A stretch of DNA of 64,000 nucleotides, from NCBI RefSeq assembly GCF_003363265.1, contig NZ_QRBF01000003.1:186001-250000 (forward strand). The letters run 5' to 3'. Position 1 is the stretch's first letter. Every line of letters begins with the position of its first letter. This document shows positions 14,141-23,563 of this stretch, piece after piece. A model generated the notes under the pieces. That model had not been told where the DNA came from, ran no database searches, and saw only the letters and a list, made by a program, of their open reading frames with translations. The stretch is from Dyella psychrodurans. GTDB taxonomy: Bacteria; Pseudomonadota; Gammaproteobacteria; Xanthomonadales; Rhodanobacteraceae. The translations under genes and the position numbers were made by a program.

Positions 14141-15187
14141 TCAGCCTTTGTTGTCGGTTTTGATTTCGTTGTGACCGCCAAACGAGTGGCGCATCGCGGA
14201 CAACACTTTGTTGGCGTACAGCTCGTTGCCTTGCGAGGTGAAGCGTCCGAACAATGCCGCGGTGAGCACCGGCACCGGCACGCCTTCGTCGATGGCGGCC
14301 TGCGCGGTCCAGCGACCTTCGCCGGAATCGGAAACGCGACCGGTGTAATCCTTGAGCGTGGGGTCGCGGCCAAGTTCCGCTGCGGTGAGGTCAAGCAGCC
14401 ATGAACCGATCACGCTGCCGCGCCGCCACAGCTCGGCGATATCGCCGAGGGGGAAGTCGTATTGATAGCGCTCGGGATGTTCCAGCGGCGACGTTTCCGC
14501 ATCGGCGGTGCGTTGCTGTTTACCCGCGTTGGCGTTCTTCAGCACGTTGAGGCCTTCGGCATACGCCGCCATCAAGCCGTACTCGATGCCGTTGTGGACC
14601 ATCTTCACGAAATGCCCCGCACCGTTGGGGCCGCAATACAGATAACCCTTTTCCGCCGCCGACGGCTCGCCCGAACGACCTTCGCTGCGCGGGGCGGCGC
14701 CAACACCCGGCGCAAGCGCGGCAAACACCGGATCCAGCCGCTTAAACGCCGGCTCCGGTCCACCGATCATCTGGCAATAACCACGCTCGCGGCCCCATAC
14801 GCCACCGCTCACGCCCACGTCGACATACATCAGCTTATGCTTGGACAAAGCTTGTGCACGGCGTAGATCTTCCACGTAATGCGAGTTGCCGCCGTCGATC
14901 ACGATGTCGCCCTCAGACAGCAAGGGCGTCAACTGATCGAGCACCACGTCCACCACCGCAGTGGGCAACATCAGCCATACCGCGCGCGGTCCGTCGAGCC
15001 TGGCGACCAGATCCTGGATCGAATCGGCAGCGGTGGCGCCGTGGCTGGCCGCTTCGCGGCGCGCTTCAAGATGCGTATCGAACACCACGCATTCGATGCC
15101 CGCTTCCTGCAATCGCCTCACCATGTTCAGACCCATGCGACCGAGCCCGACAAAGCCCAACTGCATCGCTTCCTTCTGTGCACTCAT
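14141..15187 (-). CDS. gnd: 6-phosphogluconate dehydrogenase, short (GntZ/YqeC-like) decarboxylating form
   Basis: A protein of 348 residues from ATG 15187 ([11 protein letters not shown]). It has the N-terminal NAD(P) fold [16 protein letters not shown], the substrate motif DGGNS, and the catalytic segment [20 protein letters not shown]. At 348 residues it belongs to the short 6PGDH class rather than the 470-residue Gnd. This class is often NAD-preferring, but cofactor choice is not proved here. The segment [20 protein letters not shown] near residue 165 looks like an insertion compared with the usual 300-residue enzymes. Its start overlaps the pgi stop (ATGA), so translation is coupled. Confidence 0.92.
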
Positions 15188-17499
15188 GCCTTGTTCTCCC
15201 AGAGACGGAAGCCGCCCTTGAACGCATTCTTGTTGTCGCCGCGACGCACGCCCTCGGGCAGCTCCGGCAGATGTCGCACGTTGCCGCCGCCGAGCACGAT
15301 GTAATCCGGCTCGAGCGCAGCTTTGAGCTGTTCGATAACGTCGACGACGTGTGCGTGCCACTTCTTCTTGCCGAGATGCTTCATGCCGCGCGTGCCCACA
15401 TAGTCCTCGAACGTCCCTTTCTTGTACGGCAGGTGTGCCAATTCCATCGGCTCGATAATGCCGTCCACGATAAAGGCCGTGCCCAGGCCGGTACCCAGCC
15501 CGAGGAACAGCATGCGGCCGCCCTCGTAACTGCCCAGCGCCTGCATCGCCGCATCGTTGATGACTTTCACCTTGCAACCGAACGCCTTGGCGAAATCGAA
15601 ACCCATCCAACCCTTGCCGAGGTTGTGCGGATCGCGCGCGATACGGTCGTGCAACAACGGGCCGGGGTAACCGATGCTCACCGCATCGTATTTCCAGCTG
15701 CGGATCGCCGGGCGCAAGAGCTTGATCATCGCCTCGGGCGTCAGCGTGCGACCGGATTTGATCTCCACTTCGCGCGGATTGCCGCTCAGCATCGCCTTGA
15801 CGTGACTGCCGCCGATATCGATAGCCAGCACGCGATGTGCCGGCTTTTCTTTTGCAGCGGGTGCAGCCGCTTCGGTCTTGCGTCGTGCCTTGCGATACCA
15901 GGTGATGGCCGCGTTCGTCGCACTGTCGTGATGAAGCGGCTTGCGCGGGGATTCGATTTCGTCCACGACGCGCAGGGCGAGCTGCTTGCCCAGCTCCACA
16001 CCCCACTGGTCGAACGGATTGATGTCCCAGATCGCCGCCTGCGTGAACACCAGATGTTCGTACAAGGCCACGAGACTGCCCAAGGCATGCGGCGTCAGAC
16101 GCTCGGCCAACAACAGGCTGGACGGACGATTGCCTTCGAATACGCGATGCGGCGCCAGCTCGTCGCTGATGCCCTCGTCCTTCACCTGTTGCAGCGTCTT
16201 GCCAAGCGCCAACGCTTCGGCCTGCGCGATCATGTTCGCCAGCAGCAGATCGTGATGACGTCCCGACGGATTCAACGACTGACCGAAACCGACGAAGTCA
16301 CACGGAATCAGCCGCGTGCCCTGATGAATCAGCTGATAAAACGAATGCTGCCCGTTCGTGCCCGGCTCGCCCCAGTAGATGGGACCGGTGGCGTAATCGA
16401 CCGCGCTGCCTTCGATGGTGACGTGCTTGCCGTTCGACTCCATCGTCAGCTGCTGCAGGTACGCAGGAAAACGCTTCAGGTATTGCTCGTACGGCAGCAC
16501 CGCCACCGTTTCGGCACCGAAGAAATCGGTGTACCAGATGCCGAGCAAGCCCATGATCACCGGAAGATTGCGTTCCAGCGGCGCGGTACGGAAATGCTCG
16601 TCCATCGCGTGGAAGCCGGCGAGCATTTCATGGAACGCATCGGGGCCGAGGGCGATCATCGTGGAAAGGCCGATCGCCGAATCCATCGAATAGCGACCGC
16701 CCACCCAATCCCAGAATCCATACATCTGCTGAGTGGATATGCCGAACGCCTCCACCGCTTTTTCGTTGGTCGACAGCGCGACAAAGTGCTTGGCCACCGC
16801 TTTCTCGTCGCCACTCGCCGCAGCCAACAGCCAATCGCGCGCGCTGTGCGCGTTGGTCATGGTCTCCAGCGTGGTGAAGGTTTTAGAGGCGACGATGAAC
16901 AGCGTTTCGTCGGGACGCAGATCGTGCACCGCTTCGGCAAAATCGGTGTAGTCGACATTGGAGACGAAGCGCATCGTCAACGCGCGGTCGCTGAAATGAC
17001 GCAAGGCCTCGAACGCCATCACCGGACCGAGATCGGAACCGCCGATGCCGATATTGACGATATTGCGGATCGGCCGGCCCGAGAAACCCAGCCAGCGTCC
17101 TTCGCGGATCGCGTTGGCGAGTTCCGCCATGCGCTTGAGCACCGCGTGCACGTCCGGCACCACATTGACGCCATCGACCTTGATCGACTTCCGCGACGGC
17201 GTGCGCAGTGCCACATGCAGCGCGGCGCGCTGCTCGGTGGTGTTGACTTTCTCGCCCGCGAACATCGCATCGCGGCGCGCTTCCAATCCACACTCGCGCG
17301 CCAGTGCGAACAGATGCGTCAGCGTTTGATCATCTATGCGATGACGCGCGTAATCCAGCCGCCAGCCCACCGCTTCCGCGCGATAGCGTTCAGCGCGACC
17401 GGGATCCGCGGCAAGCAGATCGCGCAGATGCTGTTGGGCGATGTCGTCTTTGTGCTGCTCCAGCGCGCGCCATGCGGTTTTCTCGCGCAGCGCGCTCAT
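15184..17499 (-). CDS. pgi: Fusion protein: glucose-6-phosphate isomerase + ROK/polyphosphate-glucokinase-like domain
   Basis: One uninterrupted frame of 771 residues. Residues 1 to about 535 are a complete glucose-6-phosphate isomerase: [14 protein letters not shown] (149-162), catalytic Glu354 in TMESNGKH, His385 in [11 protein letters not shown] and Lys505 in WGVELGKQL. An Ala/Lys/Pro linker (about 536-555) leads to residues 556-771, a ROK-type sugar kinase: [11 protein letters not shown] (phosphate loop), [18 protein letters not shown], catalytic Asp649 in VINDAAMQ, and [12 protein letters not shown]. The zinc-binding cysteine cluster of ordinary ROK kinases is absent, as in polyphosphate glucokinases. 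The predicted product phosphorylates glucose and isomerises glucose-6-phosphate. The kinase donor (polyphosphate or ATP) is inferred. Its start overlaps the tal stop and its stop overlaps the gnd start. Confidence 0.9.
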
Positions 17500-18569
17500 G
17501 CAGCCGCCTCCAGGCGCTGGCTCACGGTATCCAGCAGTTCATGCCAGGACTTCACGAACGCATCGGCGCCTTCCTTCTGCAGCACCTTGGCCAGCGGCTC
17601 GACTTCGATGCCCGCCGCCTGGAACTTGGCCAGCACGCTTGCCGTGTCGATGCCGTTCAAGCTCATCAAGCGCTCGGCCTTGCCGTGATCGGCGAAGGCG
17701 AGCAGCGTCTTTTCCGGCATGGTGTTGACGGTGAGCGGCGCAGCCAGGTGTTCGATGTAGAGCACGTCGCTGGCTTTGGGATCCTTGGTGCCGGTGCTGG
17801 CCCACAGCAGGCGCTGCACGCGCGCGCCGTTGTTTTGCAGGCGCTGCAGGCGCGGCGAATCGAGCAGCTTGCGGTAGCTGGCATAGATCTTGTCGCACAC
17901 CGCGAAGCCCAGCGTGTTGTGCAGTTCGGCGGGCACCTTGTCGACCACTTTCACGTCCCAGCGGCTGATGAACACCGACGCCACCGAGGCGACATCCAGC
18001 TCCAACCCCGCCGCGTGACGGCGTTCAAGGCCGCGCAGCCACGATTCGGCAGCGGCTTCGTACTGTTCGGGCGAGAACAACAGCGTGACGTTGATCGGCA
18101 CGCCACGGAAAATCAGTTCCTCGATCGCCCCGATGCCGGCCGGCGTACCCGGCACCTTGATAAAGAGGTTATGCACCGCCGCCTTCTTGTGCAGCGCTAC
18201 GGCCTGCTCGATCGTGCCCTGCGTGTCGTCGGCCAGCAGCGGCGACACTTCCAGCGACACCCAGCCATCCACGCCATGCGTGCGCTGGTACACCGGCTCG
18301 AAGATCGCCGCGGCGCGACGCAGGTCGTCGATGGCCAGGTCGAAGAACACCGCTTCCGGGTCCTTCCGGCCGCCCGCGCGGATCGAGGCGTCGTAGTCCT
18401 TACCGGTCTTGATCGCCTGGGCGAAGATCGTCGGGTTGGAGGTCAGGCCGGTCACCGTCTTCTCGTCGCGGTAACCCAGCAACGTGCCGTCGCCCAGCAT
18501 GCTGCGAGTGATGTTGTCCAGCCACAGGCTCTGGCCAAGTCCGTTCAGCGTGCGGGTCGGATGTTGCAT
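17496..18569 (-). CDS. tal: Transaldolase
   Basis: A protein of 357 residues of the longer bacterial transaldolase group. The Schiff-base lysine is Lys138 in [12 protein letters not shown]. The N-terminal [15 protein letters not shown] motif is also diagnostic. It exchanges three-carbon units between sedoheptulose-7-phosphate and glyceraldehyde-3-phosphate in the non-oxidative pentose phosphate pathway. An AAGGAG Shine-Dalgarno sequence precedes the ATG. It is the first gene of the operon and overlaps pgi by four bases. In some bacteria tal itself is fused to pgi; here they are separate but adjacent. Confidence 0.96.
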
Positions 18570-20380: not shown

Positions 20381-23300
20381 ATGACCGATACGACGCACTC
20401 TTTGGGCGTGCAGGGGCGCACGCGCTCACGCCCGGCACCGTCGAGTTCACGATTGGCAACGGCAATCTTGTTGGGGCTGGCGCTCACGTATGCACCGACC
20501 AGCGCATCCGCACAGACCGCGAGTCAGGACGGCAACACCACCGCCACCGCACCTGCACCCGCTAAAACCGCTGCCGGCAAGACGGATAAGAAGCAAGATC
20601 CGAAAAAGGATCAGAAAGACGTCAAGAACCTCGACGGCATGACCGTCACCGGCATCCGCGCCAGCCTTGAGTCGTCGCAGTCGCTCAAACAGAACGCCAC
20701 CCAGATTGTCGACTCCGTTACCGCGACGGATATCAATGCCCTGCCCGACCGCAGCGTGACCGAAACCCTGCAGCGCATCAGCGGCGTGACGGTAGATCAC
20801 TACTTGGCCGATGACGACCCGGATCATCCGTCCGCCGAAGGTAGCGGCGTGCTGATCCGTGGACTTCCCTACGTCGCCAGCCTGCTCAACGGCGCTGAAA
20901 GCTTTTCGGCCAACAACGGCCGCGCGCTGGGCTTCGAGGACGTGCCGGCCGAGCTGATGCAAGGCGTGGATGTGTACAAGAATCCGTCGGCGGAGCTCAT
21001 CGAAGGCGGTATCGGCGGCACCGTGGACCTGCGCACGCGCATGCCATTCGACGCTCCAGATCGGGTGATCGGCTTCTCGACGGGCGTCAATGAAGGCGAC
21101 ATGGCGAAGAAGAGCAAACCGTCCTCGTCATTCCTGTACAGCAATCGCTGGAAGACCGAAAACCTCGGCGAATTCGGCGCGCTGCTCGATGTGTCCTACT
21201 CCGAGCTGGCCTCGCGCACCGACGGCATCCAGGTCAATCCCTACGTCCTCGAACCGGAAAACCATGTCGGCAACTGCCCGTGCGAGCCCACCTCGTCCAT
21301 GGGCAACGTGGCCATTCCGGGCGATATCAACTACTACGAGATGGACATGCAGCGCAGGCGCACCGGTATTTACGGTGCATTCCAGTGGCGTCCGACCGAC
21401 AACCTGGAATTCGACTCGCGCTTCTTCCGCTCCACCTACGACCTGCAGTGGCAGGAGCACGAAGTCCAGGCCAACGAGGGCAACTACTACAACATGATCC
21501 CGGTGCCGGGCACGTCGTTCGGTTACAACAACGGCGTCTTCGAGAGCGGGGACATGGTGTCCGGTTCGTGGCAGGGCGGAGGCACGGGCCCCGCCAAGGC
21601 AACGCTGGACACGGGATGGCCGCCGATCGGCGGTCCGAATTACTACGCCCTCACCCGCGCGCAAACCCAGTTCACCCGCACCACCGACTGGTCCAACACG
21701 TTCAAGTACAACATCAGCGACAACATGATCTGGTCGGGCGAAATACAGTTCGTCAAGTCCACCGCCAATGAAACGGACTTCACGGTGTACAACCAGTTCT
21801 TCATGCCGCCCGCTAACCTGAACATGGGCAGCGGCACACCCAGCCTCACGCTGTTGAACAACACCACGTACGCGTACATCCCGTCGAACACCACCAACCC
21901 GAACAGCCTGACCAACTACGCCAACTACTATCTCGGCGCAGCGCTGGATCACTTGGAATACGACTACGCGATGGAGCGCACCGTACGTACCGACCTCGAA
22001 TACAACTTCGAGGACAGCAACTGGTTGCAGTACTTCCGCGTGGGCGTGCGCGCCACCAACCACGGCACATATAGCAACAACAACAGCAGCAGCTACAACT
22101 GGGGCTATATCAGCCAGGACTGGGCGGGCAGCTACAAAGGCCCCTCCTCGCTGGACTGGGCCAACAACATCCCGGCGTGGATGGAACAACAGTTCACGTT
22201 TGGCGACTTCTTCCGCGGCCAGACGAAGCTGCCCAGCACGCTGGTGTTCCCCAGCATGTCGCTGGTGGGCAATTACTACGGTGCGATCGCCGCGCTGCGT
22301 TCGCTTGAGATGTCTGGTGGCTGGTGTCCGCAGGTTTTCAGCGAAAGCGCGGGCGACGGATGCAACCCGGGCTCGGGCATGAGCGCGGACTATATGCACG
22401 AAACGACCCAGGCTGCCTATGCCTCGCTGTACTTTGGCAACGACACGGCATTGGGCATTCCGTTCGATGGCAACATCGGCCTGCGCTTCGTCCGTACCAG
22501 CGTGAGCGCCAACGGTTCGGTGACCTATCCTTCATCGGGCACCATCCAGAATCCCGCGGGCATCACGCCAGCCCAGATGGCCTTGTTCAACGGCATGACC
22601 ACGCCCATCAATGGCGGGTATGACTACCACAACCTGCTGCCCAGCCTTAACCTGCGCTTCAAGCTGACCGACGACCTGCAGTTGCGTCTGGCCGCCTCCA
22701 AGGCCATTACCCGACCCACCATCAGCCAGCTCAACTCGTACATGGTCATCGGTACGTCGTGGAGCTCGCCAGGGCCGGGCCAGCAGGCACAACTCGCGGG
22801 CTTTAACGCCACTACCGGCGGCAACCCGAACCTGAAGCCGCTGGAAGCCAACCAGTTCGACGCCGCGCTGGAGTGGTACTTCGCGCCCACCAGCGAGCTG
22901 TACACCACGCTGTTCAAGAAGAACATCTCCAACTACACCACCACCGAGGTGCATAGCCAAACCATCGACGGCGTGCCGGTGGCGGTGAGCGGTCCCACCA
23001 ACGCGGGTACGGGCACCGTCAAGGGCGCCGAAGTGGGCTACTCGCAGTTCTTCGACTTCTTGCCGAGCGTCTTCAAGGGCCTGGGCGTGCAGGCCAACTA
23101 CACCTTCCTGCAGAGCAGCAAGATCTACGGCACCACCTCGTGCGACCCGAACCATGGCAACGGCTCGTGCTCGGCCAACGACGTCGTCACCAACCCGGGC
23201 CTGCCCATGCAGGGTCTGTCGCCGCACAACTACAACATCACCGGCATCTATGAATACGGCGACTGGTCGGCTCGCCTGGCCTGGTCGTGGCGCAGTCGCT

Positions 23301-23563
23301 ATCTGATCACGCCGGTCGACTCGGGCGACACATACCTGCCGATGTGGAACGCCGCTTCGGGCCAGCTCGATGCCTCGATCTTCTACCACATCAACAAGAA
23401 CATGCAGGTTGGCCTGCAGATGAATAACCTCACCAACACCGTGCAGAAAGTGTTGATGGGCCCCACCACCTACATCAACGGTTACGTGGACACGAACCTG
23501 TACACGCGTGCGCTGTTCATGACCGACCGTCGTTACGAGCTCGTGTTCCGCGCGAACTTCTGA
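20381..23563 (+). CDS. TonB-dependent outer-membrane receptor (Xanthomonas/Caulobacter carbohydrate type)
   Basis: A protein of 1060 residues. It has a signal peptide (LATAILLGLALTYAPTSASA, cleavage near residue 44), a low-complexity Lys/Ala linker, and a plug domain starting VKNLDGMTVTGIRASLESSQ with LPDRSVTETLQRISGVTVD and VLIRGLPYVASLLNG. A long beta-barrel ends in RRYELVFRANF, with a terminal aromatic residue. The SLESSQSLKQNATQIVDSVT stretch is characteristic of the TonB-Xanth-Caul group, many members of which import plant-derived oligosaccharides. The neighbouring convergent XylR-type regulator supports a sugar substrate. No hydrolase or transporter accompanies it, so the ligand is unknown. 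Confidence 0.92.
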   Translation: MTDTTHSLGVQGRTRSRPAPSSSRLATAILLGLALTYAPTSASAQTASQDGNTTATAPAPAKTAAGKTDKKQDPKKDQKDVKNLDGMTVTGIRASLESSQSLKQNATQIVDSVTATDINALPDRSVTETLQRISGVTVDHYLADDDPDHPSAEGSGVLIRGLPYVASLLNGAESFSANNGRALGFEDVPAELMQGVDVYKNPSAELIEGGIGGTVDLRTRMPFDAPDRVIGFSTGVNEGDMAKKSKPSSSFLYSNRWKTENLGEFGALLDVSYSELASRTDGIQVNPYVLEPENHVGNCPCEPTSSMGNVAIPGDINYYEMDMQRRRTGIYGAFQWRPTDNLEFDSRFFRSTYDLQWQEHEVQANEGNYYNMIPVPGTSFGYNNGVFESGDMVSGSWQGGGTGPAKATLDTGWPPIGGPNYYALTRAQTQFTRTTDWSNTFKYNISDNMIWSGEIQFVKSTANETDFTVYNQFFMPPANLNMGSGTPSLTLLNNTTYAYIPSNTTNPNSLTNYANYYLGAALDHLEYDYAMERTVRTDLEYNFEDSNWLQYFRVGVRATNHGTYSNNNSSSYNWGYISQDWAGSYKGPSSLDWANNIPAWMEQQFTFGDFFRGQTKLPSTLVFPSMSLVGNYYGAIAALRSLEMSGGWCPQVFSESAGDGCNPGSGMSADYMHETTQAAYASLYFGNDTALGIPFDGNIGLRFVRTSVSANGSVTYPSSGTIQNPAGITPAQMALFNGMTTPINGGYDYHNLLPSLNLRFKLTDDLQLRLAASKAITRPTISQLNSYMVIGTSWSSPGPGQQAQLAGFNATTGGNPNLKPLEANQFDAALEWYFAPTSELYTTLFKKNISNYTTTEVHSQTIDGVPVAVSGPTNAGTGTVKGAEVGYSQFFDFLPSVFKGLGVQANYTFLQSSKIYGTTSCDPNHGNGSCSANDVVTNPGLPMQGLSPHNYNITGIYEYGDWSARLAWSWRSRYLITPVDSGDTYLPMWNAASGQLDASIFYHINKNMQVGLQMNNLTNTVQKVLMGPTTYINGYVDTNLYTRALFMTDRRYELVFRANF

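Follow-up and report, generated by a model that had tools for sequence, protein, structure and literature searches.

Gene organization of the locus

The window analysed here, a stretch of 64,000 nucleotides from Dyella psychrodurans, carries a close-packed run of four genes, tal, pgi::kinase, gnd and zwf, the second of which joins a glucose-6-phosphate isomerase (Pgi) to a compact kinase of the ROK family (Table 1). The tal stop overlaps the ATG of the fusion gene by 4 bases, the ATG of gnd overlaps the fusion stop to the same extent, and the four genes may well be co-transcribed and translationally coupled. A large TonB-dependent receptor with plug and barrel domains (20381-23563, plus strand) is divergent from this run. 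Antisense to the fusion gene, a 944-codon frame is open on the plus strand (14854-17688), which we take as a by-product of high GC.

Table 1. Coordinates of the fusion gene, its parts and the other genes of the run
Feature	Position	Strand	Evidence
pgi::kinase fusion gene	15184..17499	-	single 771-codon frame plus stop (TGA 15184-15186); two Pfam domains
Pgi domain, residues 1-535	15895..17499	-	PF00342, 700.6 bits; NF001211, 815 bits vs cut-off 492
Linker, residues 536-556, Ala/Lys-rich	15832..15894	-	variable length and sequence; pN/pS
Compact ROK kinase domain, residues 557-771	15187..15831	-	PF00480; 38-member alignment; AlphaFold; Foldseek
tal, transaldolase, 357 aa	17496..18569	-	PF00923, 242.1 bits; NF002881, 423.9 vs 367
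gnd, decarboxylating 6-phosphogluconate dehydrogenase, 348 aa	14141..15187	-	NF007161, 435.4 vs 271; TIGR00872, 396.5 vs 297.2 (protein scanned without its first Met)
zwf, glucose-6-phosphate dehydrogenase, 479 aa	12698..14137	-	TIGR00871, 509.8 vs 400.6

An earlier note on this DNA had described a single frame that links a complete Pgi to a ROK kinase domain, and had proposed a search for its domain architecture and spread. The frame, which is on the minus strand, is borne out, and Pfam returns the expected PGI and ROK pair. The isomerase match (residues 49-532) runs over profile positions 1-486 of 486, its full length, and the Pgi is indeed complete. The ROK match (PF00480, residues 558-681) scores 33.5 bits against a cut-off of 22.9 and covers profile positions 2-143 of 294 only. 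The same Pfam scan finds no DNA-binding domain in the fusion protein. Since the sole NCBIfam model above its cut-off names Pgi alone (NF001211), the second domain may be hidden from automatic annotation and the fusion overlooked by it. Where members of the kinase family are annotated, among the rows listed, they are called 'ROK family protein'.

The genome holds one PGI match, the fusion's own domain, together with two PP_kinase (ppk) matches. A single lactonase of family PF01182 lies outside the run, and so no missing lactonase has to be explained. Four matches to Glk-type glucokinases (PF02685; C10:112606-113556, C10:466023-466964, C1:576402-577349 and C1:582081-583016) seem a high number for a genome of 4.5 Mb, and with two further ROK proteins they make the fused kinase dispensable on paper. 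They rule out the fusion as a remedy for a missing glucokinase, and such redundancy makes a different donor or role for the fused kinase plausible.

Conservation of the fusion

The kinase was found in all 16 Dyella genomes searched, and every one of them has kept the fusion. Across the Rhodanobacteraceae, 38 of 197 genomes have a kinase match (E <= 0.001) and 159 have none; 31 of these matches, from five genera, reach at least 54% identity, the other seven being weaker. In the loci compared, Pgi lies upstream and in the same register in 30 of the 31 genomes with a close kinase, two loci being cut by contig ends (L012, L082), and the thirty-first genome (G099) has an open frame of 775 aa. The register was read from open frames, with an additional scripted frame check for the rows kept in the tree set. 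The fusion is thus found in Dyella and four other genera of the family, although one genome (G036) gave no match despite belonging to a genus with four fused genomes. A class-level sample of 369 genomes yielded 15 with a match, which is weak in nine; outside the Rhodanobacteraceae, one gammaproteobacterium of another family (G259, locus L094) is fused in the same order. None of the 193 matching plasmid records holds a single match covering at least 80% of the fusion. All Dyella genomes searched thus have the Pgi-kinase order, whose distribution is patchy in the Rhodanobacteraceae and which is rare beyond.

Eight Dyella comparisons gave dN/dS values of 0.064-0.141 for Pgi, 0.059-0.180 for the kinase and 0.164-0.437 for the linker, with pN/pS of 0.43-0.61 in the linker versus 0.11-0.25 in the kinase domain. 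Low dN/dS in both domains, which indicates purifying selection, and a higher value in the linker argue against a chance read-through. Against two Rhodanobacter, dN/dS is 0.20-0.21 for Pgi and 0.33-0.38 for the kinase, values that carry little weight, as a simple counting method was applied to sequences in which roughly half of the synonymous positions are different.

Residues, fold and family of the kinase domain

Glu354, His385 and Lys505, which we take to be the catalytic Glu, His and Lys of Pgi, and Asp649 of the kinase all stand where the earlier note had placed them. They are invariant in an alignment of 20 fused proteins, nine rows of which start only within Pgi, their loci being short. 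A second alignment of 38 hand-chosen kinases (34 closer, four more distant) shows invariant Gly563-Gly564, Asn648-Asp649, GTGxG at 669-673, Glu686, Trp714 and Gly737-739; among the 34 closer kinases, Lys568 and Glu698 are invariant too, and position 689 is His in 33. Typical ROK kinases bear a zinc-binding cysteine cluster that is absent in polyphosphate glucokinases. With Cys642 as its only cysteine, the kinase domain lacks this cluster, as the note had said.

The AlphaFold model of the kinase alone has a mean pLDDT of 94.4; that of the full-length protein (61.2) is poor over Pgi, and too poor for domain geometry. With Foldseek, the kinase is closest to 3lm2 (TM 0.96, 55% identity), followed by 1woq (TM 0.82, 21%) and other ROK kinases. 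A profile search returned the same order, with E-values of 4.3e-97 and 1.2e-24, the others starting from 5.2e-11. The first structure, a 'putative kinase' of Agrobacterium tumefaciens C58, belongs to the same family and fold with a near full-length alignment; it is a stand-alone protein of 226 residues, whereas the Dyella kinase is fused. We know of no activity for it, and its code led to no related paper in the open-licence literature. The second structure, a polyphosphate/ATP-glucomannokinase, has the ROK fold, the Asn-Asp and E-x-x-H motifs and the phosphate loops in common with the Dyella kinase, which is however some 40-50 residues shorter and only about 21% identical.

The polyphosphate glucokinase model is hit by all 38 aligned relatives (E <= 0.001), in agreement with the nearest named family that had been suggested for this domain. 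Scores of 63.8 and 68.2 bits, far below the 250-bit cut-off of NF045942, rule out membership in the polyphosphate glucokinases (PPGK) proper. An excerpt of one study assigns the catalytic Asp, the phosphate-1 and phosphate-2 motifs and a conserved Trp to PPGK function (PMC4252912). Asp649, Gly563-Gly564 and GTGxG are invariant here, as is Trp714, a candidate counterpart of the mycobacterial Trp; the Asp and the phosphate loops are found also in ATP-using ROK kinases. A count of basic residues favours neither ATP nor polyphosphate. Sequence and fold together tentatively point towards the polyphosphate branch.

A distant branch of ROK kinases (L022-L024, L099, L100, L124-L127, L133) is about 32-40% identical and slightly longer, with no pgi in its loci. 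This branch may fall between the compact kinase family and the polyphosphate glucokinases, of which the tree contains none.

Stand-alone kinases and their neighbours

Among 50 named loci, 13 are fused, ten in the Pgi-kinase and three in the kinase-Pgi order. The pgi gene occurs in 23 of the 50, gnd in 27, zwf in 27 and tal in 20, and at least one of these partners is present in 38 of all loci and in 25 of the 37 unfused ones. By a rough, uncontrolled estimate, chance alone would put four given genes no more than about 12 kb from a gene picked at random in a 4 Mb genome in only some 1% of loci. An unfused pgi follows the kinase in nine loci (L041, L044, L050-L053, L056, L058, L067), and many kinases lie with zwf and gnd but without pgi. 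Twelve of the 50 have no partner gene, some of them on short contigs, and such absences are not firm because many loci are shortened by contig ends.

The partnerless stand-alone kinases have mixed neighbours (20 chosen, from ten loci), for instance a HAD hydrolase, an ABC transporter, an SBF transporter, a lipoyl ligase, an alcohol dehydrogenase and a protein of metallo-beta-lactamase fold. One such kinase stands beside a GH15 gene and acetate kinase (L043), another beside glycogen phosphorylase, PFK and phosphotransacetylase (L070). In two Planctomycetaceae MAGs (L061, L066), a gene for an SBF-type transporter directly precedes the stand-alone kinase.

A GH15 glucoamylase is encoded in six of the 50 named loci, including two fused Rhodanobacter loci (L032, L033). 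All three plasmid regions examined, chosen among those listed of 57 matching records, have a GH15 or glucan 1,4-alpha-glucosidase gene near the kinase: in Deinococcus gobiensis the order is zwf-kinase-GH15, with GH15 adjoining the kinase, while gnd and zwf lie between the two in Martelella and Allorhizobium. Glucoamylases release glucose. These neighbours therefore favour glucose as the substrate, and the gene context backs the glucose that the earlier note had assumed.

Another fusion of Pgi was also seen near the family. In Nitrospira sp. UBA5699 (L047, 2-2545), a single open frame of the Tal-Pgi type contains a match to Tal and a distant one to Pgi and lies a few kb away from the kinase, suggesting that the Pgi near this family may have another fusion partner; in an acidobacterial locus (L046, 3060-5117), Tal and Pgi matches lie in one register. 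The bifunctional transaldolase/phosphoglucose isomerase (PRK09533, NF007080) resembles the Dyella fusion in attaching Pgi to an enzyme of the same pathway, and differs in its partner, which in Dyella is the kinase. Assignment of the Dyella genes to this type is ruled out: tal and the fusion are separate genes that score 66.0 and 364.7 bits (the latter for Tal of the window) against 712.

Reverse order and origin of the fusions

The opposite order, kinase-Pgi, was met in one open frame in two Rokubacteria MAGs, AR27 and AR15, with 776 and 779 aa (L048, L057); a third contig, also from AR27 (L049), is cut after 63 residues of Pgi. This reverse order is known from MAGs only. The reverse fusion is the sole PGI match of AR27, and AR15 has a second, weak one. 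Across the phylum 12 of 95 genomes match, and among the loci that could be checked only AR27 and AR15 have the fused frame. In G660 and G652 the frames are 478 and 544 aa long, and loci L122 and L133 hold no pgi match of at least 200 residues.

In a tree of 90 kinases, the three reverse fusions form one clade (support 100/100) outside the Pgi-kinase rows, with a separating branch supported at 86/94. On the best tree the Pgi-kinase label itself requires two changes, one of them forced by well-supported branches. The opposite order and the separate position of the reverse fusions suggest at least two fusion events, which would have joined the domains in opposite orders in distant bacteria.

Alternative explanations

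We considered several other readings of the kinase domain. In the first, it acts on another hexose, turning fructose into fructose-6-phosphate (F6P) or phosphorylating mannose, and Pgi then converts F6P into glucose-6-phosphate (G6P) for Zwf. Models of fructokinase, allose kinase and N-acetylmannosamine kinase do match weakly in part of the family, and the nearest named structure, 1woq, is a glucomannokinase. We nevertheless hold this unlikely in view of the glucose-releasing GH15 neighbours and of the many kinases that adjoin zwf and gnd without pgi, for which G6P made directly is the simpler input.

Slightly less probable still, the kinase could be made also or mainly as a separate protein, by a start at the in-frame GTG that opens its domain (Val557) or by cleavage of the variable linker, and its linkage to Pgi would have no catalytic meaning. 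The junction of the Rokubacteria frame, with several Met before Pgi, points the same way. Against this, no clear ribosome-binding site precedes the GTG by eye, and the fusion is kept throughout Dyella and in other genera.

ROK repressors bind sugars without phosphorylating them, and the kinase domain could likewise be inactive, serving as a sensor of glucose (or G6P) or as a structural partner of Pgi. The four Glk-type glucokinase matches of the genome would fit such a role, as does the kinase fold shared with ROK repressors (e.g. 5f7q); yet the 34 closer relatives show no substitution at Asp649, Lys568 or Trp714 or in the phosphate loops, Pfam detects no DNA-binding domain, and the kinase is linked to metabolic genes, which leaves this reading improbable.

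An artefact of assembly or sequencing, for which no support was found, is ruled out by the same fused frame in many separate genome records. The fusion of Pgi with a compact ROK kinase is real.

Proposed function

We regard the Dyella fusion as a likely bifunctional enzyme, in which Pgi is combined with a compact ROK kinase whose most likely reaction is the conversion of glucose to G6P. That both domains are catalytically active is highly probable, and glucose is probably the substrate of the kinase. Polyphosphate may serve as a donor, a prospect that we place just short of even, and kinetic channelling between the two sites appears rather unlikely.

The kinase domain would phosphorylate glucose to G6P, the shared intermediate that Pgi would equilibrate with F6P. 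As the fusion gene sits with tal, gnd and zwf, G6P could enter the pentose phosphate pathway as well: it would be oxidised by Zwf and Gnd, encoded in the same run, and Tal would return pentose carbon as F6P. The fusion would fix a 1:1 ratio of kinase and isomerase, with both sites on one chain, and the fused chain is probably dimeric through its Pgi part.

The isomerase and the kinase very likely work together, since their fusion seems to have occurred at least twice and in opposite orders; comparative support for a functional coupling is good. Tentatively, the whole, broadly distributed family might be dedicated to bringing glucose, with polyphosphate as donor, into a glucoamylase/Pgi/oxidative pentose phosphate module, and the two fusion orders might each have independently created a natural ATP-independent glucose-to-F6P enzyme.

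The joining of consecutive sugar enzymes has precedents. An excerpt on diatoms describes fusions of TIM with GAPDH, UGP with PGM and G6PDH with 6PGDH through a short spacer (PMC2173943); like the Dyella protein they place two consecutive enzymes on one chain, though they are eukaryotic and involve other enzyme pairs. In the open-licence literature, the titles and abstract openings among the matches listed describe no Pgi-glucokinase fusion, and the excerpts among the matches listed for PPGK and 1woq mention no form fused to Pgi. The parts are of known kinds; for their combination, its two orders and the coherent gene neighbourhood, there seems to be no earlier description.

The two fusion orders, together with the linkage of the genes in several phyla, strongly suggest that the kinase family works on the metabolite common to Pgi and Zwf. 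If its donor is polyphosphate, the fusion would be a naturally occurring single-chain catalyst that takes glucose to F6P, of use in enzyme cascades free of ATP. As an assay target, the kinase could give a name to its family and to the orphan structure 3lm2.
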